Shown: positions 1-12,866 of the stretch, one piece after another | Layout of the letters: every line of letters begins with the position of its first letter | How positions within the stretch are numbered: position 1 is the first letter of the stretch | Assembly (NCBI GenBank): GCA_027575805.1 | Contig: JANBPU010000397.1 | Coordinates: 1-12,991 of the forward strand | Reading direction: 5' to 3' | DNA: 12,991 bases | Source of the DNA: Mycoemilia scoparia | Taxonomy: Eukaryota > Kickxellomycota > Kickxellomycetes > Kickxellales > Kickxellaceae | The notes under the pieces: model-generated | Seen by the model: the letters and a program-made list of their open reading frames with translations, nothing else | Told to the model about the DNA's origin: nothing | Databases searched by the model: none | Position numbers and translations under genes: made by a program

Positions 1-104
1 TTGATTCAGAATCACTCTGATCAACTGAAAGTTGTTCAGGGCGATCCTGAATCGTTCAGGACGAAATAATCCCATCTAGGATCATTCAGGGCAGACCATG
101 TGGG
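1..104. repeat. Palindrome-rich repeat at the left edge, type unknown
   Basis: This stretch has no gene. It is dense in short inverted motifs: TTCAGG at 35-40, 55-60 and 85-90, CCTGAA at 46-51, and a near-perfect palindrome at 45-61 (7-bp arms, 3-bp loop). A further hairpin, TGGGC/GCCCA, lies at 101-114 on the junction with the LINE. The reverse transcriptase reading frame of E1 stops resembling its relative near position 105-130, so this is probably the edge of another repeat that truncated E1. The solo LTR at 1015-1317 has a similar palindrome-rich part (about 1195-1275) with TTCGGAA/TTCCGAA motifs, so the two may be related, but the match is loose. Confidence 0.4.
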
Positions 105-2914
105 CTACGGCCCAACAGGTGAAATATCAGATGCCGTGATATCTTCCTCAGGGTGGGACCCTACTAGGAGGAGCTCAGTCTTATCAATATTAAACAGGGC
201 ATTTGACCCTGCACAATATTTATCGAAGGCAGATCTTAAGAGCGGGAAGTATCTCATCGAGGAGAGGCAGACAGCTGTGTCGTCCATGTAGCAGCGATAA
301 TGGATTGTATGCCCGTCGAGGGATAGGAGGGCATCTTTGGGTAGTGTCGATTTAATCGTACTGCCCAGGGTTTCCATGACGAGTACAAAGAGGATGCACG
401 AGAGAGCATCACCCTGTCGCACACCATTGGCGATACTAAAGGGCTTCGAAGGGACCCCATTGACAACAACATCAGAACTAGTGGAATCATAGAGCTTTTT
501 GATTGTGCTTATGAGGCGGTCCGGGACAAAGAAGTTACGGAGGAGTGGGAAGAGGAGATCGTGTGAGACTCTGTCATAGGCCTTAGCCTGGTCCAAGAAG
601 ACTAAGGCAGCAGGGGTGACAGACAAAGTAGAGGCATGGTGGGCTGCAGAGACATCGAGGACTGCATCACTTATCGAGCAACCGGGGATGATGGTGGCTT
701 GTTCTTTCGAGACGAGAGGGGCCAATGCACTGCCCATACGGTGAGCAAAGATTGATGTAATGATTTTGTAGCTCGCGTTCAGGAGTGAGATGGGCTGGTA
801 GTTCTTGAGGAGGGTTAAGTCCCCTTTCTTCGGGAGGATGACGATACAGCTGGCAGTGAATTCAGTGGTGCACCACTCAGGGTGTTCTAGTAGTGCATTG
901 GCTAGGAGGACAAGCCAATCACGAGCTGACTGGTAATGTTTATACAGCTCAGCGGGGACCCCATCTGGACCTGGGGCTTTCTTTTTCCTGGCCTTTTTGC
1001 ATGCGAGGTTCACCTGTCAATCTGTAGGATTGGCTGTAATAAACAACCAAGTAAAACCTTTTGTAAAATATGAGACTTGTACAATAAATATATACCTATA
1101 ACTAAATCCTTTCTACCTAAAGTTTATTTCAAACAATTAGTAAAAGAATAGTAATGTATATAAAAAGATGAAAAAAACTATTTGTTGTTCCTAACGTTCC
1201 GAACAAGTATCCTCAGGGCCCATTGTTCGGGACATTCGGAACCCTTGGAATATTCCGAAGATTCGGAATAATCCAAATCAAATAATGATTAGGCTATGAT
1301 TATCTCATGGCCTATCATCACCTCTATCATCATGATAGGTGAGCCCAGGTTATAGGCATCGACATGTTCTTGTGCATCTGGGACAGTCCTGATCGATTCA
1401 GCGTGGGTGTCCAGAAGAGTTTTGATGTTTGTGGGCAGTGGGTATGATGGTTCATACATTCGAGAGTAAAAATTGGCTGCAGTTGTCTGGAGCTGAGTTG
1501 GTTCGGAAACCGTTGGAGTCGAAGGATCTGAGCTTGGCCTGAGGGCCTGGATTATTGCTGATTTGCGGGGTTTGGTGGCTGCATGGACCTTCACCGTAGT
1601 CCATTCATTGATACGGTCCCTGTGTTTCAGCCACTTGGCTGCGGCAGCCCTCTGTGCATATTTCCCTGCTGCTGTTGCTAGATTGAGGGTCTGCTGCTCT
1701 AGGTTGTAGAGTATCGAAGTGGTCCTGGGGGAGCGGCAGCTAGCAGAGAGCTTTCTGAAAGTCTTTAGGACCTTGGTCAGGGACTTGAGGGAGGTCTGGT
1801 CCCTCTTCATGGTGTCTTCTTTAAAGTATTTAACCAGCTTATCGAGCATGATGTCAAATATCGGGAAAGGGTTGATTCATTTGCTGGCAAGCATGAGATG
1901 TTCTTTGAGAAGGGAATCGACCTTACGGCGGTGGCGTCTGAGGGAAATGTCCTTAGGGGGGATGTGGTATCCCACCCTGACAAATCCCTGGGCCTGTGGA
2001 ATTTGTGATTGTTTAACAGAGACTATGACAGCATGGTGATCTGAGCTCTGGAGACAGTGAATCTGGGATGAGGATGAGAAAGGGGTGAAGCAGGAGGGTA
2101 GAAGGACATAATCAATCCGGGATGTCCATTCTCTAGCATTGTTCTGAGCACTCCTGAAGGTCATTAAGTTAAGCCGCTTAAAGGTATTAGGATCCGAGTC
2201 TGGTGGGATTGGATGAAGAAAATCCACAATGTCAACAAGGTCATTGTCAGTCAGGAGTCTCTCGAAGGCTTCCTGGGAAGCAACCAGGTCAGAGCGTTGT
2301 GGGGTAGAAGTATTCTGGTCATATGGGAAGCGAGCGATGTTGAGGTCCCCTGCTACTATAGTTGTCCAGCCCTTAACTTGGAGGGCCTGGATTCTATGGG
2401 CAAGAGAATGGATCTCCTCAGCACTTGGGTGGGGGGTTGCATGAGCATTAATGATTGCCAGGGCAAAACGGTCGAGTAGGTTAATTGAATATCTCTGGTC
2501 AGAGATAGCTCCTAGTAGGGAGCAGGGGCCAAGGTCTTTTGAGACTAAGGTGGCAAGGTCGTGTTTCATCGTGGGTATGTTGATTGGTTGGTGGAGGACT
2601 TGGTAATTCGAGAGGTGGTACTTGAACAGATCAGCTGGGCTCTCGCCAGAGTTGCACTCTTGGAAAGTGATAATTTCTGGTGGAGAGGGCCAGGAAGAGA
2701 CGAAGGATCTGATCTCATGGAGAATCTTAGTTCTTGTGGTGCCTGGGGAGCCAGCTCCCCAAAGGTTTAGTGTTAGGATCGTAAAGTCATTAGGTAGTGA
2801 AGGCCCCAAGGGGATAGGAATATATTGTAGTATAGAAGAGACATCAAGATAGGTGTTGTCCTGATTCCTCACGCCTGCATGGTATTTGGGAATTATGCCA
2901 TAGTTATTAATCAT
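105..2914 (-). pseudogene. LINE E1 ORF2: APE endonuclease and reverse transcriptase, disrupted
   Basis: This encodes the protein that nicks target DNA and copies the LINE RNA into it. The start is the ATG at 2914-2912, which overlaps the ORF1 stop as ATGA. Endonuclease residues are recognisable: Asn50 in TLNLWG, Gln85-Glu86 in TFQEC, His158 in INAHA, Asp190 and Asn192 in AGDLN, Asp268 in SRIDYV and the SDHH block at 291-294. After a linker rich in basic residues comes the RT, with GPDGVPAEL (about 970-944), FLDQAKAYD, GVRQGDALS and the catalytic YMDD at 290-279. Damage: an in-frame TGA at 1879-1877 (codon 346), a solo LTR inserted after roughly codon 532, and a TAG at 107-105, near which homology to E2 ends. 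Removing the LTR and one target repeat restores the frame exactly. The RT thumb, the C-terminal domain and the zinc knuckle are absent. Confidence 0.92.
1015..1317. mobile_element. Solo LTR, 303 bp, TG...CA ends, 5-bp TSD TCACC
   Basis: The insertion begins TGTCAATCTG and ends CTATCA, so it has the TG...CA termini of an LTR. It is flanked by a 5-bp direct repeat, TCACC, at 1010-1014 and 1318-1322. Taking it out rejoins the E1 ORF2 frame (…IEV|NLACKKA…) where E2 has the matching IEI-ACH segment, which confirms the borders. There is no coding sequence, so it is a solo LTR left by recombination between the two LTRs of a retrotransposon. The first 130 bp or so are AT-rich and recur at about 12744-12866. 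The right part (about 1195-1275) is rich in TTCGGAA/TTCCGAA motifs. The internal part of the parent element is not in the window, so its superfamily and orientation are unknown. Confidence 0.85.
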
Positions 2915-4774
2915 TGAGCATCGGCAGAGCCAGAACGCATACGTAGAGATCTTGAGCCCACAGTAGTAGAGCCCTTAATGGGACTGTCCTTTAGATCAGT
3001 AGAGAGGCCAGCCATTTCTTTCGACAGTGGGACTGGCTCAGGCAATGGTGGGACTGTAATAGGTAGGTCTCTTTCAACCTCCTCAGCCCAGTCCAGTTTG
3101 GTTGTGTATGGAAGAGCTGGTTTTGTACTGGATCTCACATATGGAAGAGAACTGTTACCAGAGCGTTTAGTAGTCATTGTGCCAGATGTCCTAGCAAGGT
3201 GGGCAGTAGGGGCCATTTGCTTAGGTGGATCATTTGGTAGGGCCTGAGTTGCAGTATTGGCTGCATCATCCATGGCCATGGTATCGCCTGTGGGTTCCAT
3301 TGTAGCAGTAGGAGCAGTGAGCTCAGGACTGGTAGGAGCCTCCATGGCCATGGGTGAAGCTACAACAGCATCTGGGGCTGGAGCTTGAGAGGGGGCAACT
3401 ACTGGTGTAGTTGCAGTGTCTGCTGCAGTAGGGCCTGGCCTGCTATCTTCCACAGATGAGGGAGAAGAAGTTTGAGGGAGGGAGGGTGCTGGACCAGCAG
3501 GGCCTTGCCTGCTATCTGCTGGAACAGCAGCAGCCTCTGTTATGGTGTTGCTGTGGCAGCAGCAAATGTCTGGGTCAGCAGACCCACAGTCAGCACAAAA
3601 GATAGCCTTGGAAGCTGGCATGATCTTTATAGGTCTGGGGTGGCCATTAAATTTGACCACTGTAGGGAGTGCTCCCCCATCAGGGGGGGACTCAAGGGTA
3701 AAAGCCCAGTCACCATACCAGTTACCTTGGTAGTATTGAGGCTTTAGGTTAGATGCTGTCCCATAAGGCCTCAGCGCAGCCTGAATTATGGGTCCAGTTA
3801 CCTTGGTAGGAGCATTAAGGAGGACCATTGGGATCACCATTGATCCATTGATCAGCCAGGGATAGGATTTGCCCTGCCAGACAAATGGGTGATCAAGCAT
3901 GGCAAATAGTGCCTCCCTGGTGCTGGCTAGCAGGCTATAGCCTGATTCTGAGGGGCAATGGGTGTAATTAAATCCCTGATTGCCAGCGGCTGCCTGAAGA
4001 AAAGACTTTTCATTTTTAGCCTTTTTGTTTCCATATATTTTTTTATAGGAATTTTCGACCATAGCGATGTGCACGCAGAGGAGACGGGCCCTCCCTGAGA
4101 ACTTCGGTATCTCAGCATGCAGCTCAGGCAAGGTAAGTTGCGGTGCTCTTCGAAGCACCGCTGCCTGCTGCTGCTGGAAGCGCTGGTAGTGGCTTTTCGG
4201 CCCCTCAGGGCCACTTTTTGAATTTATGGCAATTTTTTTGCCCAATTCTGGCCCATTTTCGCGATTTTCGTGAATTGCTGGGTGGCGGCAGTGATTTCCC
4301 CTGCGGCAACCACTGGCAACACCAGCAGTGGTTGCCAGGGCATTCCCAGTGACTTGGGAGGGGGGGCTGGGGCTTCATCTTCTCTTCCCAGCCTTCGCGA
4401 CCTTCCAGTTGCCCTCATCGGAGGGCGCAGCGACATCAGCAGCAGCGTTGGGGGCTGCAACAGCAGCAGCAGTGCTGGGGGGGGTGTTCCCCAGCAGGTT
4501 CCCCAGAGTGTTCTCCACTCTGGCCCAAATGTGTTGAATTCAGGGTTGAATTCACCACAATCGGGGGAGTGGTGTGACCACTCTGGGCCTGTGGGGGCCC
4601 CTCTGCCCTTTCCTGGGCTTGCTCGCCCTGAATGACAAGGGTGGTGAGCTCAGGCCTGCCTGAATCGGCAGGCAGAGTGTTGGTGGTGGTGGTGGTGGTG
4701 GTCGTCGTGGTGGTGGCGGGGGGCAGAGCGTCTTCCCGCAAGACGCTGAAGAAATTTTCTTCAGCTGGAAGCAT
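2911..4774 (-). pseudogene. LINE E1 ORF1 protein, one frameshift and one in-frame stop
   Basis: This is the presumed nucleic-acid-binding ORF1 protein of E1, about 620 residues once the two lesions are ignored. The start chosen is the ATG at 4774-4772, 74 bases inside the element. The N-terminal part is low complexity with a threonine run (from the 4681-4718 microsatellite). At an eight-base C tract (plus-strand G run 4477-4484) the frame shifts by one base. The new frame reads through an in-frame TGA at 4377-4375 into a long open part from about 4245 to the TGA stop at 2913-2911. That part has a conserved block ending in WYGDW (3720-3706) and a cysteine cluster C-x2-C-x7-C-x-CH (3597-3556), then a Pro/Ala/Thr-rich tail. 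E2 ORF1 has the same block and spacing. This is not the usual CCHC knuckle. The homopolymer shift could also be a sequencing error. Confidence 0.75.
4681..4718. repeat. TGG microsatellite encoding a Thr run in E1 ORF1
   Basis: TGG repeats with a few TCG and GCG interruptions. On the coding (minus) strand they read ACC/ACG, giving a run of about eleven threonines near the N-terminus of E1 ORF1. Probably replication slippage inside a low-complexity coding region. Confidence 0.8.
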
Positions 4775-4848
4775 CTTTTTTGATACTTTTATAGGCCAAA
4801 AATAAGGTGGCCCGATATAGGTATAAAAAAGAAGAGTGGAGAAGAGAT
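4775..4848 (-). other. LINE E1 5' UTR and 5' terminus
   Basis: About 74 bases separate the ORF1 ATG from the start of the tRNA-Ala stub. In the LINE sense the terminus reads (C)ATCTCTTCTCC, directly after the antisense tRNA start GTTCCCC. E2 begins ATCTCTCTTCC at the equivalent place, although the rest of the two 5' UTRs is different. A TATAAAAG at 4793-4786 lies only 12 bases upstream of the ATG, too far inside to make a full-length transcript. No promoter is called. There is one more G (five rather than four) next to the stub than at the other two sites. Confidence 0.55.
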
Positions 4849-4849
4849 G

Positions 4850-4863
4850 GGGGAACTAGCTCA
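4850..4863 (+). repeat. tRNA-Ala 5' stub 1 (target-site duplication)
   Basis: GGGGAACTAGCTCA is identical to the first 14 bases of the tRNA-Ala gene at 12190. It covers the acceptor 5' strand, the two linker bases and the D-stem 5' strand. On its left is the 5' end of LINE E1, on its right the 3' end of LINE E3. The following AGTGG also resembles the tRNA (GTGG), so the shared part could be slightly longer. I read it as the duplicated target left by insertion of E3 (right) and as the site E1 abuts (left). It is not a functional tRNA. Confidence 0.85.
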
Positions 4864-5037
4864 AGTGGACAGTGGTTTATTACTAATAGAAACTTAAAAA
4901 TAGAGTTAAAAGAATATATAATTATAAAACTATTATAAAAGAAACTACTAGTAAAGGGATCACTCCAGTATTCTGAAGAGTGCGCATGTGCTCCTAAGAG
5001 CTCATGCAAATTCCAACCTAGGCAGAATTATCCAGAA
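4864..5037 (-). mobile_element. LINE E3: 3' tail only, severely 5'-truncated
   Basis: These 174 bp lie between two 14-bp tRNA stubs. In the minus-strand sense the right-to-left sequence is AT-rich and ends AATAAACCACTGTCC before the antisense tRNA start. It resembles the E2 3' end, which ends AATAAAACATTGTC at the same junction, with matching AT-rich sequence upstream (TTAAGTTT near E3's end; TTAAAGTTT in E2). So this looks like the last part of a related LINE whose reverse transcription stopped early, as is common for LINEs. A hairpin (4984-4993 with 4998-5007, nine of ten pairs, four-base loop) lies near its truncated 5' end. There is no coding sequence I can assign. It could alternatively be a short non-autonomous element sharing the LINE tail. 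Confidence 0.65.
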
Positions 5038-5051
5038 GGGGAACTAGCTCA
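5038..5051 (+). repeat. tRNA-Ala 5' stub 2: left target-site duplication of E2
   Basis: GGGGAACTAGCTCA again, identical to 12190-12203 and to 4850-4863. With 12190-12203 it forms the direct repeats flanking E2, so it is the left target-site duplication. The next bases, TGGTGACA, resemble the tRNA continuation GTGGTAGA, so the exact junction is uncertain by a few bases. The flank on its left (TCCAGAA) differs from the flank of the intact tRNA. Confidence 0.9.
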
Positions 5052-5491
5052 TGGTGACAATGTTTTATTGAGCACATAAACTTTAAAATAAAGTAACTAG
5101 AAACATCAAAGAAATGTAAAGAAAGTTAAAGTTAGAGAAAAGCATAGAGGTTACCCATGGCACAAGGCAGCAGCCTGGCTGAACTGCCTGCCCAGGGGGC
5201 CAGATCCCTAGGGATCAGTGTGCCGAATGAAGTACAAGGATGCCCGGAAAGAACCCAAGGCACACAGGAGAAGAGAGAGGGCCACAGAGATGAATGGATG
5301 AGGCCGAAGCAAAGCCCTTGATATATTGTTGGCTGCTTGGCAACTCAGAGCCCCCAGCCAAGGGCGCTGCCCAATTCAGCCTGCTAGACCAAGGGGGTCC
5401 CAGGAAGCCGGCGAGAGGACAACAGATGCAGAACCGACATGCTGGAGCAGGGCGAGGAGGGCATCAACAATGATGCCAGCGGCCAGCACCA
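5052..5491 (-). other. LINE E2 3' UTR
   Basis: Noncoding sequence follows the ORF2 stop. The part nearest ORF2 is GC-rich; the last 110 bases or so are AT-rich and end, in the LINE sense, with CAATAAAACATTGTCACCA against the antisense tRNA start. The terminal CCA can pair with TGG of the tRNA D loop, which could position the RNA on the nicked target. There is no poly(A) or simple repeat at the 3' end, unlike typical L1 elements. I see no further gene in it. Confidence 0.75.
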
Positions 5492-8400
5492 TTATGGTGG
5501 CATGTGCGATCTCTCCGAGTTGTCAAGGATGGTCGGTGGGACGGTGATTGGAATCGGCGCAGATGAGAAAGCAAAGAAGGGAGAGAGCACTCCCAGGAAG
5601 CGATCTCTGGTCTGGGCAGAGGGGACGACGGTAGGCAAGTAATACTTGAAGCTGCGGGTCCAAGTGGAGAGGAGGCAGTTGGAAGGCCAGTAGCCTTCCC
5701 CATAGGCGTCCTCATTGCGGTTCAGCCATAAGCAGTGGATCAGAATGGCCGCGCCATGGCGCCAGGCCTTGGAAAAATTGGCGGCAAGATTGGAGTCGGA
5801 CTGTGGTAGGCTAACCCAAGCGGAGAAGGGCATAAACAGCCAAGCTGGGGCGGGGAGAAGCGGGGCCGCTGCGTAGTCAGCAGGGACAGGGCACACAAAG
5901 GCCAATTCAAGGTTGGACGCGCGGAATTCGGACCAGCAATCATGGTAGATGGTGGCGGCCAAAGCAGACCAGGCTGGCAGAAAGGCATCACGTAGAGCGG
6001 AAGAGAGTTTGCAGCGGCCCAGAATATGAGCGGCAGACTCAAGCGAATTACAGCAGCAGAGGCAGAGGCCATGGTTTCTGGGGGGAATTCCCCCATGGAG
6101 CAATCAGAAAGTGCAGGCGCGCGCCTGTGGGGTCGTCGGCAGAGTGTGGGTCTTAGCCCAGATATCGGTGGTCGAGCGGGGGAGCGCTAACAGAGTGCCA
6201 GGCTTTATGGCGGGAATAGGAGTAGCAGTCTTGAGGGTCCCTGCTGGGGAGCCTGCGGCGAAACTAGTGGTTTTGCGGGACGAGCCCCAGGCACTGAAGT
6301 CCAGAGCGGCGGCATTAGCGAAAGGGTGATTGCCATGGGCTTTGAGGCCAATGGTGGCGGTATAGCTTGGAATAATAGGCGGGAGAAGAGAAGTAAGAGG
6401 AATGGGCGGATGAGGCTCTGGAATAGGGCCGGACATAGGCAGACCTTGGCAGAAGCGGGAGAGGCGGTCAATGACTGACAGCTTGTCAACCTCCGGAAAA
6501 TCAGGCAGCTCGGTTATGGTACGGATCACATGCAGTGCACACTTGACTGTGAGCGGGAGATCGTCTGGGACGGCGTCAAAGGCGATCTTGAATATCCTCC
6601 ACACAATGCGGCCCTCAGGCTCCCAGAGGTCAGTGCCAATGAGAGGGAAGTCCAGTGGAGGAGCGGATTCATGGTAAGGTGGAGTGCGAGCAAAGCTGGA
6701 AGTGCGGCAGTGGAGGGAAAAGGTTCTGCCCCCATGGCGTAGGGCGGCATAGACACTGTAATGGACAGCGGGCCAGGCCTCCGCTGGGACCAGGCACCTG
6801 CGCGAGGACTGGATGAAAGGATCAAGCAGCCATCTGCGAAGCTGGGCGGGATGAGCAGTGGAAAAGAGGATGGGAACTTTGTAGTTCTGGTGGCGGATCT
6901 GAAGTGAAGAGTGCCAGCAGGCCAATAGCAGCACGTGCCAGATAGGCGGGGCGCTGGAGCCAGGGGCATTCTTGATGAGGGCGGCAGACCAGGACGAGAA
7001 GCAGTGGGCGAACTGGGTCTGGATGGCAGTAGCGATGGCCTCAACTGAAGGCATGCGCAGGCCCCCTTTTTTGAGGGGGAGCGCTGCCTGAGCAGGCTTA
7101 AGGAACTTGACGCGAACCTTTTACACAATGGAGCGTAAGCGGGCATCCAGCCTAGAGAGGATGGAGGCCTGGAACGGGACAAAGCGGGCCAGGAAGGTAA
7201 TCTTTGGGACTGAATATGTGGCAACCGCGGCAGCGCGGCCAGGGAGAGTGGCAGCAACATTGGCCACAAGCCTGGCATGAGCGGTGATGTCATCAGCGGT
7301 CTTCTGGGCAATGGCCTTGTAGTCAACATGATTGCCCATGTAAGCACCGAGGTAGTGGATGGGCTGGCCGTCAGGGACTGGCTGGACTGGAAGGTCAACT
7401 AGCGGTTGAGGGCCAGAGCCGATGAGAAGGAGCTCGGTCTTACTGACATTGAACAGCGCGTTGGTGCCTCTGCAGTAGAGGTCCAGAGCCGAGTCGAGCT
7501 CGCGGTAGTGGGCGGTGCTGTTGAGGAAAACAACAGTATCATCCATATAGTACTGATGGGAGAACCGACCAGTAGGGAGAAGGGGGAAAGCCACTTCAGG
7601 GACCTTTGAGCATATGGCGCAACCAAGGAGCTCCATGACTAAGACAAAGAGGAGGCATGAAAGGGCGTCCCCTTGTCTGACCCCATTAGCAATGGGGAAG
7701 GGTGCGGAGGGCTGGCCATTAACAATCACAGTGGACTGGGCGGTGAGGTACAAGCGGTGAATGGTCTTGATCAGGGCGTCAGGAACGCCAAAGTTCTTCA
7801 GTACTTTGAACAGGGTGACGTGGCTGACGCGGTCGTAAGCTTTGGCCTGGTCTAGGAAGAGAACAGCAGCGGATTTTTTGTTGACATCCAGGTACTGCTT
7901 AGCGGCCATCACATTCCAGATGGCGTCGCGGATAGAGCGGCCTGGGATGATAGCTGATTGCTCCTGAGAGACCAGGGGGGCCAAAGTAAAGGCGAGGCGG
8001 CGGGCGAATATAGAAGTAATGATCTTCAAGTCGGAATTCAAGAGCGAAATCGGTCTGTAATTGCCCAGGGCCTTAGGGTCGCCCTTCTTATATAGGATGC
8101 AGATTGCACCCTTAGTGAAAGACGCGGGGCAAAGTCCAGGGTCGGCAAGTAGGAGGTTACCTAGGCGGGGAAGGATCTGCCTAGCGGCCGGGAAGTGCTT
8201 GTAGAGCTCCGCCGGTACGCCATCAGGGCCAGGGGCCTTGCGCTTGCCTGCTCAGTGGCAGGCTATCTCAATCTCCTCTATGGTGAGAGGGGCAGAGAGG
8301 GCCTGGAGAGAGGAGGTGGAAGGGCGAGAAGGGCGGCTGTCCAGGAAGCACCTATGGAGAGCCAGCAGTTCCTCTAGTGCGTCTGGGTCGGGTGAGGTCG

Positions 8401-9952
8401 GTTCATACATTGAACAGTAGAAGTCGCCCATGGCGGCAGTGATCTCAGCGTCGCTGGTAACTTCATAGCTCAGGTCAGTGGGGTCAGGGGTAAGGGCCAC
8501 AATAGGCTTGTTATTCCTGGGTTTGGTCTGGGCACGGACCAGCAGTGTGGACCATGGAGAGATGCGGTCTCCGAGCTTGACCCACTTCTTGGCAGCGGCG
8601 ATCTGAATCTTGGTGGCGGCGAAGTTGGCGGTGGCAAGGGCCTGTTCTTCCAGGTCCTGCAGTTGCATCAAGGCAGCGCGCTGGTCAGGCGCAGATGGTG
8701 CAGAGCGGGAAAGCTTTATGTGGCGCTTGCGGAGGGTGGCCAGTTCTTTGAGGCGGAAATGGTCCTCCTTGCGCTCGGCAGATTTGAAATAGCGGATCAG
8801 GTCGGCCTTTACTGCCGCAAAGGCAGTGAAGGGATCTTTAGTCGCGGCGTCAGTGGGCATGGGAGGATCTTTGAATCCAGCCAGGATACCCCTGATGTCA
8901 TGGGCGTATTTCTTATTGGCAAGCTTGGTAGGCGGGATTCTATATCCAGCTCTCGTGAAGCGGCGGTCGGAGGCAGTGGGCCATGCTAGGGTGACAAAAA
9001 GGGCCTTATGGTCCGAGTGATCCCCCTGGTCCATGGCTGAGTAACTGGTGTTGCGGTGGCTGGCCACATTGGTGGGGCAGAAGACTAGGTCTATACGGGA
9101 GCGGTATCCCAGGGGATCAGCTCTATCAAGCGCAGCCAGAGATGTGGATTTGAAGGTGAGAAGCAGATATCTCACCCGGGACTGAGCGGCAGTCATAAGC
9201 AGAGAAGGAGAATGGGGATTGAGGTGGTCACCCAGGTCTGTGAGGGCCAGGGTGTCCATAAGTTCGTTAAGGGCTGCTGGGGCCGTGCTTCGGTCAACAT
9301 TGGTGCGGTCACAGGGAAGAGGCGCAGTGTTAAAGTCCCCCGCCAAGATTAGGGACCAGCCTTTGGATTGAATGGCGAGGAGAGGGTCATGAAGGCGATG
9401 GAAGAAGGTAGGAGATGCGAAAGGCGGACCGTGGATGTTGATTATGGCAATGCCTAGATCAGGCAGCAGGACAGTGGTGACTCTAGGCCAGCTGAAGTCA
9501 GCAAAGAGAGTGGAAGCGGTAAATGAGGACCTTACCAAGGTAACAGAGTCATGGCACGGCGCTGGAGATCCAGAGGGAAGACCAGCAGAGCCATGGGCCC
9601 TGAACTGTGGTAAGCGGCGTGAGAAGTAGTCGTTAGGAGCGTCAGGGAAGTTACATTCTTGTAGGAAGATAACATCAGCGCTGAAGGACTCGGAACTGGT
9701 AAGTGTGGAAATGTAGTGATTCTTGGTAGCAGCCACTTGAGAGCCCTTGCCGCCTATGCCCCTGACATTCCAGGAGAAAAGGCGAATTTTGGGCGGTGAC
9801 TTATGGAGCGGTGAGGGCAGGGGTATGTCGTTAGAAGCGATTGTTGGGACCCACTCAGCGGTGTGGGGGTGCGTAGAGTTGAGATCTTGACTAAGATTGC
9901 TATGGGCAGAGACATAAGCAGAATCTTGCAAGGTATTTATTTGAGTACGCAT
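5492..9952 (-). pseudogene. LINE E2 ORF2: APE endonuclease, RT and zinc knuckle, three in-frame stops
   Basis: About 1,486 codons in one frame. The start is the first ATG (9952-9950); the frame is open back to 10003, so a non-ATG start such as the TTG at 10000 is possible. From that ATG the endonuclease residues are near Asn62 (FSWNVRG), Gln98-Glu99 (FLQEC), His174 (INIHG), Asp206 and Asn208 (AGDFN), Asp288 (SRIDLV) and SDH at 313-315. The RT has GPDGVPAEL, FLDQAKAYD (7858-7832), GVRQGDALS (7684-7658) and YMDD (7549-7538). A knuckle C-x2-C-x8-H-x4-C lies at 6064-6011, followed by about 170 residues of C-terminal domain with WLNRNEDAYG. In-frame stops are TGA 8254-8252 (codon 567), TAA 7123-7121 (codon 944) and TGA 6106-6104 (codon 1283). 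Sequence continues in frame after each, and homology to E1 spans the first. All are explained by single C-to-T changes. Confidence 0.93.
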
Positions 9953-10033
9953 ATTGAATTGATATGTAAAAATTAAGAAAATAGCTAAGACAATGAGCAA
10001 CGGCTAGTAGCAGCGGAGGTGTAGTGCGGGGCA

Positions 10034-12073
10034 TTAAGCCTGCGGGCTAGTACCAGCTTCCAGGGCGGCAGGTGTTCCACTTGCCGGCTGGTTGGCGCTT
10101 GATGTAGCGCGGCTGTGACTGTGACTACAGCTACGACTGTTGCGTCTGGCTGGTGCTCTTGCAGCGGGTGCGCTGGTGGCGGGAGCCTGTGGGGCAGGTG
10201 TGGCCCTGCCCTGTGTGAAGGGGTCTACCTCTGGGAGGGGGGCCCTATCAATAACCACCACTGGCGTTCTGAGCAGTGCAGGGAGAAGCGGAGCTGATGC
10301 GGCAGGAGCGGGCAGATCATCTTGGTCAGATTCATCGGATTCAAGAAGAGACTGGGACCTGCTGAGCTTAGAGGCACCCAGAATGGGGCGGAAGGCGATG
10401 GCCTGTGCAGTGTTACCTGGCCTGAACAATTGCGATTGTCTCTTGCGGATGGGCGAGTCAGATGGCGAGGGCGAGGATGACAGGACCGCGCGCTTCTTTG
10501 TGGTTGCCCTGATGGGTGTGACCAGTGGGGCAGGCGTGGGAGTGATGCTAGGTGTAGTGGAAACAGCAGGAGCGGCCACCGGTGGTGCAGCAGGGCGAGA
10601 GCCTTCTGAGAGTGTCTCCTCCATGATCGCGTCAATAGCTGCCTGAGAAGGAGCATGAGTGGGAGTGAGGGAGGGCGCTGGCGCCTGTGGCAGTAGCGGA
10701 AAGGGCGCTGGGGTCATCACTTGTATTTGCGGGCGGTTTGGTTCGATTGCGGCTCGAGGTGCGGGTGCTAGTTCTCCTGCGGGAGCTGCTGGTCTGGCGT
10801 CGAGCTGGGGGCCGTTATGGGCAGCGAAGCCGCTGCACTTGCAAACCCGAGTGTCGGCTGAGGTACATGCGCAGCAGAAGAAGATTGAGGAGAAGTGGTT
10901 AACCTCATAGTCAGCTGTCTCATCAATCGAACCGCGGTTGGAAACGTCAGATAGGACTGGGCGCATCAAAGTGGGAAGTCTCGAGCCAGACCTGAGGAGC
11001 AGCATGGCTTCCCAGTCTCCGAACCACTGGTCTTCGATGTGGTAGTACTGGCGTAAGTCCTTAACCAAGCCGAGTTCCAAGAGGCCCTTTTCTATCTCAG
11101 GGGCTGTGATCTTGGGGTCAATGCTTGCGATGTGGACGTGCACGACCGAGTCCATATCGGGGGTCCAGGAGTAAGGCGCTCCCTGGTAGAGAAGGGGGTT
11201 AGCCTGGAAGAGGAGCAGGTCCTCGGAGTTGTTTGGATGGAGGCCCACGCGGTTAGGGCAGAAGGTAATGCAGTACGGAGCCTGCGCCTGTGCGTTGGGC
11301 ACCTGGGCGCTCGGGGGTGGGAAGGAAGCGTAGAGCTCGTCCAGATAGTCAGAGATTACTCGTCCTCGGCCGGGGAATGCCAGCAGGTCGATCCACAGCG
11401 TGGCGAGTCAAAGAGCGGGCATCCTGCGGCGCGCTCCCTCTATGCGTGCGTCCAGTGGTAGTGATTTATTATGTCTATCGGTTCTGGTCATGGCTGTGTC
11501 CTTGTATGAGAATTTCCCTGGGGGCGAGCTGGGTTGTTTGGCGGGTTTCGAGGCCGCTGGTGGCAGAGGAGTTGAAGAAAAAGAAGAATTTTTCAAGGGG
11601 GGGAAGGAGAACTTCCCTCTTGACTTCTTTTTATTCATCTTGGCCCCGCCTGTAAAAAGGCTGGCCTTCAAGTCCTTGGCTACAGCATGGGCGGTGGTGC
11701 GGCAGGCAGCGTGCTGACGCCCTTCTCTGTGCTTCTGAGAGAGCGACTTGACCTGAACCCAGGGCCCCTCTGAAGTTTTATCAGAGCCAGCTTGCGGGTC
11801 AGGGGAAGAAGAGGTGGTCTTGGTGGGCAGCACAGCAGCAGTAAGCGGGACAGTATTGGATACTGAGCGGGTGCTGGAGTTGACTGCTGCGGCGGGCATA
11901 TCATCAGTGGGGCGCTCGAAGCCGTTGCTAACAAAGCTAAATTCAATTTGCTTTGTAGGTTCGGTGGTAGCGGCAGCGGGAGCAGGAGCGCTGACAGGAG
12001 GGGCTCTCTCAGGACCCTGGTCAGTGCCTCCCATGACGACTTCGTCTTCGCGCGGTGGGGCGGTGGAGGCCAT
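10034..12073 (-). pseudogene. LINE E2 ORF1 protein, one in-frame TGA
   Basis: A 680-codon frame from the ATG at 12073-12071 to the TAA at 10036-10034, broken once by TGA at 11410-11408 (codon 222). It is the presumed RNA-binding and chaperone protein of E2. The N-terminal third is Ala/Pro/Ser/Thr-rich and ends in a basic stretch (KMNKKKSRGKF). The middle has a conserved block ending in WFGDW (11026-11012) and a cysteine cluster C-x2-C-x7-C-x-C at 10876-10835. The C-terminal part is low complexity, rich in Pro and Ala, with a short Arg/Ser/His segment near the end. E1 ORF1 shares the GDW block and exact cysteine spacing but little else. I do not recognise a named RRM or CCHC family here. The stop may come from CGA, which would restore arginine; that is inference. 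Confidence 0.85.
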
Positions 12074-12189
12074 TTGAATTGGCAAACTCAAATTCGGCGA
12101 ATTGGGCAGAATCGGCTAACTTATTTTTGTTCAGAAAAATGGTCTAATATAGACCTGCGAACTGAAAAAAAATTTTTCGGAAGAGAGAT
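12074..12189 (-). other. LINE E2 5' UTR and 5' terminus beside the tRNA
   Basis: 116 bases between the ORF1 ATG and base 1 of the tRNA-Ala gene. In the LINE sense it begins ATCTCTCTTCCG followed by a short T-run, and contains a TATATT-type AT-rich stretch (near 12144-12156). The LINE therefore starts back to back with the tRNA gene, so the DNA just upstream of the tRNA, where TFIIIB would bind, is now LINE sequence. A shared or divergent promoter is possible but not shown by the sequence. Confidence 0.6.
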
Positions 12190-12271
12190 GGGGAACTAGC
12201 TCAGTGGTAGAGCGTGTGCTTTGCAATATTAAAAATGCACAAGGTCCTGGGATCGATCCCCAGATTCTCCA
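12190..12271 (+). tRNA. tRNA-Ala (anticodon TGC) with a 10-nt intron
   Basis: The cloverleaf was folded by eye. Acceptor GGGGAAC pairs with ATTCTCC (12264-12270), discriminator A 12271. D arm GCTC/GAGC with loop AGTGGTA. Anticodon stem TGTGC (12215-12219) pairs with GCACA (12237-12241). Anticodon TGC is at 12222-12224, and A12225 is followed by a 10-nt AT-rich intron (12226-12235) in the canonical position 37/38. T arm CTGGG/CCCAG with loop ATCGATC. Six acceptor pairs form (one is G-T); the seventh is a C-A mismatch (12196 with 12264). No CCA is encoded. The first 14 bases serve as the LINE target. All arms are otherwise intact, so it may well be functional. A 5' SINE-head origin is less likely because the full tRNA with intron is present. 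Confidence 0.88.
12197..12260 (+). promoter_or_regulatory. Internal Pol III promoter: A box and B box
   Basis: The A box TAGCTCAGTGG (12197-12207) fits the TRGYNNANNNG consensus, and the B box GGATCGATCCC (12250-12260) fits GGTTCGANNCC with one change. The inferred LINE integration junction (after 12203, or a few bases later) falls inside the A box. The duplicated 14 bp therefore rebuild a complete A box only on the right side of E2. Confidence 0.8.
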
Positions 12272-12674
12272 ACTTCATAAAAAATTGATGGATGCTTAAA
12301 GGTGCCACCTTTAAAGTCTTGGCTACTAAATCATGATTCATTAATATTTTTTAGCTATTGTATCATTGAGCAATCTTTTTGTGGAGCAGAAAAGTTTACT
12401 CATAAAATCATCATAAGTCAGAGTCTAATAAAATATAGACAAATTTATATATTATACCCATAACTGAAAAGACTTGAATATTATATTAAAGGAACTAGTA
12501 AACAATATTATTAATACCTCTTGGGAATCTTTTACATAAGTTTAGTTATTATTTTTCTATTCTCTTCCTTTAGTAATATAGCCAAGGTTTTCCCCTTGTG
12601 GTTTTGTCCAGGCTAGTTTTTATTTTCTATCTTGAGTTTTATTTCTTTATTTTATTTGACAACAAAGTTACCTC
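12272..12674. other. AT-rich intergenic DNA downstream of the tRNA
   Basis: No gene seen. A hairpin lies at 12296-12314 (TTAAAGGT with ACCTTTAA, loop GCC). The first T-run long enough to end Pol III transcription is at 12347-12352, about 76 bases after the tRNA, which is far for this role. The stretch at about 12440-12497 (ATACCCATAACT … ACTAGTAAAC) weakly resembles the AT-rich part of the LTR at 1015-1317 and may be a decayed copy. Confidence 0.5.
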
Positions 12675-12743: not shown

Positions 12744-12866
12744 ATCAATCTGTAGGATTGGCTGCAATAAACTGCCAAGTTAAACCTTTAAAACTAATGA
12801 ATATCAGAATAAATATATGCCTATAACTAAATCCTTTCAACCTAAAGTTTATTAAAAACTATTACA
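12744..12866. repeat. Second copy of the LTR left part, truncated
   Basis: About 120 bp match the left part of the solo LTR, 1017-1145 (for example TCAATCTGTAGGATTGGCTG, ATGCCTATAACTAAATCC and CCTAAAGTTTATT). The match runs in the same orientation and stops near 12862-12866, where a different sequence starts (TACACTACCGC). The right palindrome-rich part of the LTR is missing. Confidence 0.8.

Follow-up and report, generated by a model that had tools for sequence, protein, structure and literature searches.

An L1-like LINE lineage of Mycoemilia scoparia that very probably targets the 5' end of tRNA genes

How does a retrotransposon come to lie flush against a transfer RNA (tRNA) gene, with the first bases of that gene repeated at its other end? 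The question is raised by contig C330 of the genome assembly of Mycoemilia scoparia (466 contigs, denoted here by C-numbers; 21.16 Mb), a fungus placed in the Kickxellomycotina. This contig of 12,991 bases, referred to as the window, carries an intact tRNA-Ala gene and three elements: E2, a long interspersed nuclear element (LINE) adjoining the gene, a second LINE named E1, and E3, a short copy of a related family. Judging from element junctions compared across the assembly, E1, E2 and E3 very probably belong to one L1-like LINE lineage that targets the 5' end of tRNA genes.

Stacked insertions at one tRNA-Ala gene

The 14-mer GGGGAACTAGCTCA is found in the window at 4850-4863, 5038-5051 and 12190-12203, both by reading the sequence and by a repeat search. 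A pattern search of the 21.16 Mb gave five exact matches, against none for the reversed control; the two located beyond the window are an intact tRNA-Ala in C105, 93% identical to the tRNA at 12190, and a stub in C404. Bases 1-14 of the tRNA-Ala(TGC) gene at 12190 are the copy of the duplication on the 5' side of E2, and the perfect flanking repeat described in the initial annotation is borne out by all three approaches. The features are as follows.

1-4849, minus strand: E1, a second LINE, with its 5' end at the stub at 4850; endonuclease within 1877-2974, reverse transcriptase (RT) within 105-1016
4850-4863, plus strand: tRNA-Ala stub between the 5' end of E1 and the 3' end of E3
4864-5037, minus strand: E3, a 174-bp 5'-truncated copy of a related family, with GGGGAACTAGCTCA on both sides
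5038-5051, plus strand: the second copy of the duplication, a tRNA-Ala stub (bases 1-14) where E2 has its 3' end
5052-12189, minus strand: E2, an L1-like LINE with an apurinic-type endonuclease (APE-type), without poly(A) at its 3' end and with frames broken by stops
5492-7120, minus strand: E2 region after the RT, two open stretches
7121-8251, minus strand: E2 RT (RVT_1, E 6.4e-34)
8252-10003, minus strand: E2 apurinic-type endonuclease (Exo_endo_phos PF03372, E 3.1e-10)
10034-12115, minus strand: E2 region of open reading frame 1 (ORF1), two open stretches in one frame
12190-12271, plus strand: intact tRNA-Ala(TGC) gene with a 10-nt intron (printed as 12189-12273 by ARAGORN with introns allowed)

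One tRNA-Ala gene bears three stacked insertions, E1, the truncated E3 and E2, all antisense to the tRNA. On the plus strand the 5' end of E2 reads ...CGGAAGAGAGAT and is directly followed by the tRNA. The minus-strand endonuclease and RT, together with the ARAGORN call, confirm that E2 lies antisense and leaves the tRNA complete; a Cys identity returned by an intron-blind ARAGORN run was dropped, the run with introns giving Ala(TGC). E3 is 97-98% identical to an element of C356. The 3' end of E1 was not located within the window. A public database protein of M. scoparia that resembles the endonuclease of the lineage, H4219_005790, matches E1 in sequence. The RT frame of E1 is broken at about 1017-1288 by a repeat, TCAATCTGTAGGATTGGCTG..., of which an 83-91% copy lies to the right of the tRNA (12745-12864) and further copies lie in C213 and C461.

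By its predicted domains, E2 is the combination of an APE-type endonuclease and an L1-like RT, which follow each other in the same minus-strand frame apart from stops, as in APE-type LINEs. E2 is not an intact copy, since both ORF1 and the frame encoding endonuclease and RT are split by in-frame stops; its relative in C461 has a single open frame of 676 amino acids at the ORF1 position. The best solved relative of the E2 RT is LINE-1 ORF2p (E 5.7e-32), and a PDB search with the endonuclease frame gave no match at E 1. The ORF1 stretches of E2 and C461 matched no Pfam family. The two E2 stretches after the RT had no Pfam match at E 0.1, a diverged restriction-like endonuclease being possible there. 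Nor was an RNase H domain recognised by Pfam in the stretches of E2. Target-site duplications (E2, E3, C461) and 5'-truncated copies (E3, C106, C174, C404) are those of a LINE. In a tree of ten Mycoemilia RTs, from which C174, C404, C30 and C213 were left out and which holds no named L1 or Tx1 reference row, nine form one clade (support 100/100). This clade sits in a branch (97/94) with 14 other rows including vertebrate and plant proteins, and C291 is the basal RT row. No close relative outside Mycoemilia emerged from two protein searches, in each of which about 8,000 candidates sharing most words were scored (best identity 24-31%, the window's own protein aside).

Junctions at other tRNA genes

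In the initial annotation E2 was taken to be a LINE that inserts into tRNA-Ala; on a strict form of this reading, the endonuclease would read the tRNA-Ala sequence. The window itself is consistent with this, the complete insertions E2 and E3 and the 5' end of E1 all being located at tRNA-Ala. The genome makes it very improbable, since the same or related families occur at Gly, Lys, Thr(AGT), Thr(TGT), Ala(AGC), Val, Cys and Tyr-like tRNA genes. The closest relative of E2, in C461 (88.6% identity over 3,819 bp and 90.2% over 884 bp, i.e. 88-90% over 4.7 kb), sits at a tRNA-Gly: its 3' end carries the stub GCATTGATGGTC and its 5' end adjoins an intact tRNA-Gly beginning with GCATTGATGGTC. Both termini of E2 are common to this copy, the final 20 bases before the tRNA being identical. 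Both ends of an insertion are thereby seen for E2 at tRNA-Ala and for C461 at tRNA-Gly.

The endonuclease and RT of E2 gave 11 and 15 genome matches, respectively, corresponding to 14 LINE copies or fragments once C138, another lineage in the RT tree, was omitted. A tRNA junction was found in nine of the 14 (E2, E1, C461, C39, C404, C106, C174 and two copies in C260, C260a and C260b). In C39 an E2-like 3' end lies on GCCCGGCTAGCTCA, the start of tRNA-Lys. In C404 such an end lies on a tRNA-Lys start with one mismatch, which has a truncated RT fragment on its opposite side. Other truncated fragments of the RT stop within a few bases of tRNA-Ala(AGC) in C106 and of tRNA-Val(AAC) in C174. An E1-like 5' end adjoins a tRNA-Thr(AGT) stub in C260 (C260b), and an E1-type 5' end (91% over 77 nt) is found at tRNA-Thr(AGT) in C145.

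When both 3' ends of the window were used as queries, eight distinct loci were obtained, the two queries included. Alignment of the flanks of E2-like ends had been proposed in the initial annotation as a check of tRNA-Ala targeting. An exact tRNA start stands directly at the element 3' end in six loci (C330 twice, C461, C39, C356, C394), and Ala accounts for only two of these, beside Gly, Lys, Thr(TGT) and a Tyr-like tRNA. The remaining loci are C404, with its single mismatch, and C190, with a degenerate flank only. In C356 the stub corresponds to the first bases of tRNA-Thr(TGT), and this 14-mer has three occurrences in the genome: this stub, an intact gene in C49 with a 5' end of the type termed group A directly upstream, and an intact gene in C56 with another flank. 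The stub in C394 matches the first bases of a tRNA present in C207 and C429, both with element 5' ends upstream. ARAGORN prints this Tyr-like tRNA as Asn(GTT), but the usual position of the intron points to Tyr(GTA).

Element 5' ends are likewise distributed over several tRNA species. The E1-type 5' end is common to the Ala stub and Thr(AGT), and its C11 variant is found at Cys and at the Tyr-like gene, while group A ends adjoin Ala, Thr(TGT), Thr(AGT), Cys, Lys and Tyr-like tRNAs. LINE coding sequence is attached at Gly, Lys, Thr(AGT), Ala(AGC) and Val; Thr(TGT), Cys and the Tyr-like gene are connected by shared termini. At these other tRNAs too, the junction is at the mature 5' end and the element is antisense. 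The tRNA differs between copies and also occurs without an element (C56, C257), contrary to a tRNA-derived short interspersed nuclear element, in which a tRNA-like sequence would serve as the 5' promoter of the element itself.

Recombination or segmental duplication around tRNA genes could have spread element-flanked tRNA ends without transposition, and the stacked arrays in C330 and C260 would fit such a process. It is nevertheless highly improbable given that one element end is joined to unrelated tRNA species at one coordinate, that duplications of 12-14 bp and 5'-truncated copies are found, and that an empty paralogue loses homology at the insertion point. This empty site was identified through C39, where the sequence past an outer tRNA-Lys stub matches that flanking the intact tRNA-Lys in C257 (91% identity over 230 bp); the homology stops at tRNA base 12, exactly at the insertion point, and the site is paralogous rather than allelic. 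It argues against stubs predating insertion, an objection raised for E2 in the initial annotation. The insertion at the empty-site point (C39:3706-5365) is a 1.66-kb one at tRNA-Lys, outside the E2-like copy and with its own 12-nt stub. Its 3' end belongs to family F5, seen once and without link to LINE coding sequence, and its 1,660 bases had no match elsewhere among the pieces searched.

Stubs were also counted with 12-nt tags of 25 tRNA starts. In 143,897 bases, mostly chosen for LINEs or the 14-mer and in part the source of the tags, so that the figure is not a genome-wide rate, 16 matches were obtained (6 intact tRNAs and 10 stubs), compared with a mean of 0.3 for shuffled and 0 for reversed tags. 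Eight of the ten stubs run into 3' ends present at at least two loci and two into ends seen once.

Contig ends provide a further line of evidence. An Rfam tRNA search scored 63 of 989 candidates; with the eight on C453 excluded and a partial match at the start of C264 uncounted, 55 nuclear matches were retained. The 5' end lies within 150 bp of a contig end in 17 of them and the 3' end in three, for an expectation of 0.18 each (17 versus 3, p 0.003). Sequences common to different tRNAs were found at several of these tRNA-adjacent ends, and contigs seem to break inside repeats at tRNA 5' sides. The lineage would then account for part of the fragmentation of the assembly, in which contigs end just upstream of tRNA genes. 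C453 is a 66-kb contig with a dense tRNA cluster and is probably the mitochondrial genome; two stretches fetched from it (loci L106, L107) lie outside the stub scan.

Several observations weigh against tRNA starts as the target of the lineage. Five of the 14 copies (C213, C30, two in C291, and C297, which is 93% like E1) have no tRNA junction in the DNA examined; for C291 and C297, off-target insertion, another target or later rearrangement are possible reasons. C260a lacks the E1 5' end in its usual form. About 900 bp extend from the point where that end would lie to the Thr stub of this copy, and some 540 bp of them recur in the 5' region of C461 (70%). This extra stretch may be a real 5' region; without C260a, the junction count is eight of 14. 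The 5' junctions vary by up to about six bases: E1 and C260b have one extra G and C105 has two, C429 has an extra CCGAG, and C422 and C396 are short of 3-6 nt. Searched genome-wide, a loose pattern for tRNA-adjacent 5' ends, AGANATN{7,9}TRGYNNARNNGG, gave 29 matches versus 26 in the control, i.e. no excess, and misses the E2 junction itself because of the D-loop spacing in this tRNA-Ala. Finally, the 3' side of tRNAs also lies at contig ends above chance (three matches where 0.18 were expected), so tRNA repeats alone break some contigs.

The population at tRNA starts is probably, though by no means surely, a mixed one, in which this LINE lineage coexists with other tRNA-targeting or non-autonomous elements. 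Repeat groups C, D and E, upstream of Glu, Arg, Gln and Thr tRNAs, have no tie to LINE coding sequence; those at Glu, Arg and Gln (C8, C464; C388, C136; C64) and an element of C190, E2-like at its 3' end, group A at its 5' end and unmatched over about 730 bases between, argue for such a mixture. A group D-like stretch between C260a and its Thr stub argues the other way. The mixture concerns the extra groups only and is compatible with tRNA targeting by the lineage itself.

Other observations touch these elements. The C190 element (C190:124242-125323, locus L052) is 1.1 kb long; its first 301 bases are the E2-like 3' end (74%) and its last 49 are group A, the middle matches nothing in the 12 contig pieces searched, and a decayed tRNA adjoins. 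It is perhaps a non-autonomous rider. The stretches of about 540 bp in C461:15195-15734 and C260:7704-8209 (70%), in the 5' region before the terminal bases, are absent from E2 and also resemble C461:7197-7474. Repeat groups are found at the mature 5' ends of Glu, Arg, Gln and Thr tRNAs near contig ends at seven loci (L086, L063, L060, L061, L069, L066, L053). Genes for tRNA-Lys and tRNA-Ile (L070, L084 and C39 just above 5377; L076, L077, L088, L089) are preceded by related stretches, GCGGAC...GAAAA..TTT.., that by eye look like the 3' end of a multicopy gene halting just before the tRNA; homology was measured among the Lys copies and judged by eye for the Ile ones.

Insertion model and site choice

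From the ends, duplications, orientation, stacking, 5' truncation, range of tRNA species and empty paralogue observed in the sequence, we infer which strand is cut first, how synthesis is primed, and how the element is recruited and its site recognised. Duplication and orientation together imply that the primer strand is the tRNA-like strand, cut after nucleotide 12-14, the other being cut at the -1/+1 border. The endonuclease would nick this tRNA-like (non-template) strand inside the A box, and the freed 3'-OH (...TAGCTCA) would serve as primer for reverse transcription, which would begin at the 3' end of the RNA of the element. Priming at the nick is assumed from the target-primed mechanism of LINEs rather than from data on these elements. 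The other strand would be cut at the border of the mature tRNA, and completion would duplicate tRNA bases 1 to 12-14 (15 at the Tyr-like gene, counting the preceding base), leaving an antisense element that directly adjoins a complete, regenerated tRNA gene at its 5' end and a tRNA stub at its 3' end. Being regenerated, the gene could be hit again, which would build stacked arrays with the youngest copy presumably beside the tRNA. The initial annotation proposed one cut in the A box and one at the mature start of the tRNA, and both are implied by the duplication.

What sets the site is more conjectural. Recruitment by RNA polymerase III (Pol III) factors alone, as proposed for the Dictyostelium element TRE5-A, would let the bound complex set the position and the endonuclease read little sequence. 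It would explain why tRNA species with differing acceptor stems are entered at the same coordinate, and TRE5-A requires the B box and its ORF1 protein contacts TFIIIB (PMC5391098). It appears unlikely as the sole determinant: the cut is intragenic and shifts by no more than a few bases, while insertions of TRE5-A scatter over 23-181 bp upstream, 80% within 47+/-3 (PMC5391098), and the D-arm core GCTCA is over-represented among targets. This core is present in 8/10 tRNA starts counted as targets and in 2/15 others (p 0.002), in a post hoc comparison with author-listed targets and with groups C-E left out.

The favoured account, though itself still somewhat doubtful, is a composite one: A-box and D-arm sequence and bound Pol III factors would set the site jointly, and element RNA reading past AATAAA into the antisense stub would pair with the primer strand, an RNA ending UGAGCUA... 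being able to pair with a primer ending TAGCTCA. None of the 11 element 3' ends examined starts with an A or T run at the stub, i.e. there is no poly(A). AATAAA lies 10-13 nt before the element end in 10 of the 11 and in four of the five end families (a count without control), and from this position ordinary RNA cleavage could take place either in the antisense stub or where the element ends. Restoration of a full A box by the 3' end of the element was rejected as a general rule, with only 5/11 joins fitting TRGYNNARNNGG.

The element 5' ends suggest an effect on the tRNA gene. TATAA or TATATA, read toward the tRNA, is present at -42 to -20 in 16/20 element 5' ends and in 5/37 native flanks (shuffle expectation 6.8). 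It lies at -21 to -29, mostly -27/-28, in E1/C11 and group A and at -32 to -40 in C461 and groups C and E, and is absent from the 5' ends of E2, C210, C64 and C80. By group the comparison is 5/8 versus 5/37 (p 0.008), post hoc and with author-listed groups, E2 and C461 making one positive group though E2 is without the motif. This suggests that many elements may give the tRNA a new upstream promoter. A bolder and rather doubtful extension would make tRNA genes renewable landing pads: TATA-bearing 5' ends would replace the displaced Pol III upstream promoter, and the antisense stub past AATAAA would join the RNA 3' end and pair with the nicked A box of any tRNA gene with the D-arm core, addressing the next insertion.

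Comparison with known systems

In the open-access literature, partly surveyed and with most subscription papers outside it, no L1-like LINE lineage was found that cuts inside the A box of many tRNA genes or inside fungal tRNA genes. No open-access work on Kickxellomycotina retrotransposons with tRNA was found; in the parts consulted of two papers on transposable elements of this group (PMC12611240, PMC10386755) the word tRNA is absent, and the M. scoparia genome was met only in splicing-factor work. As a natural system, the lineage could be informative on how an L1-like endonuclease gains site specificity, whether by recruitment, A-box reading or RNA-DNA pairing, a question that bears on safe-site gene insertion.

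The list of known LINE targets in the initial annotation was incomplete. NeSL-1_TV in tRNA-Pro, LIN15_SM in tRNA-Arg and LIN25_SM in tRNA-Glu, all NeSL-related, are LINEs inserted in tRNA genes, but from a group credited with a restriction-like endonuclease and with one named tRNA species each (PMC4640811), in contrast with the APE endonuclease and many tRNA species of Mycoemilia. The nearest known element in position is NLTR-A of Dictyostelium purpureum, a non-LTR (long terminal repeat) element found just 5' of tRNA genes; it is reported at 2-6 bp upstream of the mature sequence and has an RNase H domain after the RT (PMC5006619). The Mycoemilia elements differ in that they directly adjoin the mature 5' end (0 bp, give or take a few nt) and the duplication falls inside the tRNA. 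TRE5-A, about 47 bp upstream, and TRE3, 40-150 bp downstream of tRNA genes, have oligo(A) tails (PMC5391098, PMC5911963). They share with the Mycoemilia elements an APE-type, L1-like nature and the use of tRNA genes in general, whereas the latter lie inside the gene and without poly(A). Another LINE, Dewa, is placed in the Tx1 clade. It is target-specific and linked to tRNA genes but has one target, a tRNA-Leu spacer (PMC3706591). The yeast Ty3, an LTR element, also inserts near every kind of Pol III gene, at the start of transcription, which lies about 12-15 bp before the mature tRNA (PMC5006619, PMC5911963). Dada DNA transposons likewise enter tRNA genes (PMC3706591, PMC8869645), and Zorro3 of Candida, a fungal LINE of the L1 superfamily, targets poly(A) (PMC7175516). 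LINEs in single tRNA species and LINEs beside tRNA genes were thus already known, and what appears to be new is a near base-precise L1-like lineage at many tRNA species, which would stand between the distance-measuring Dictyostelium elements and the LINEs using one tRNA species.

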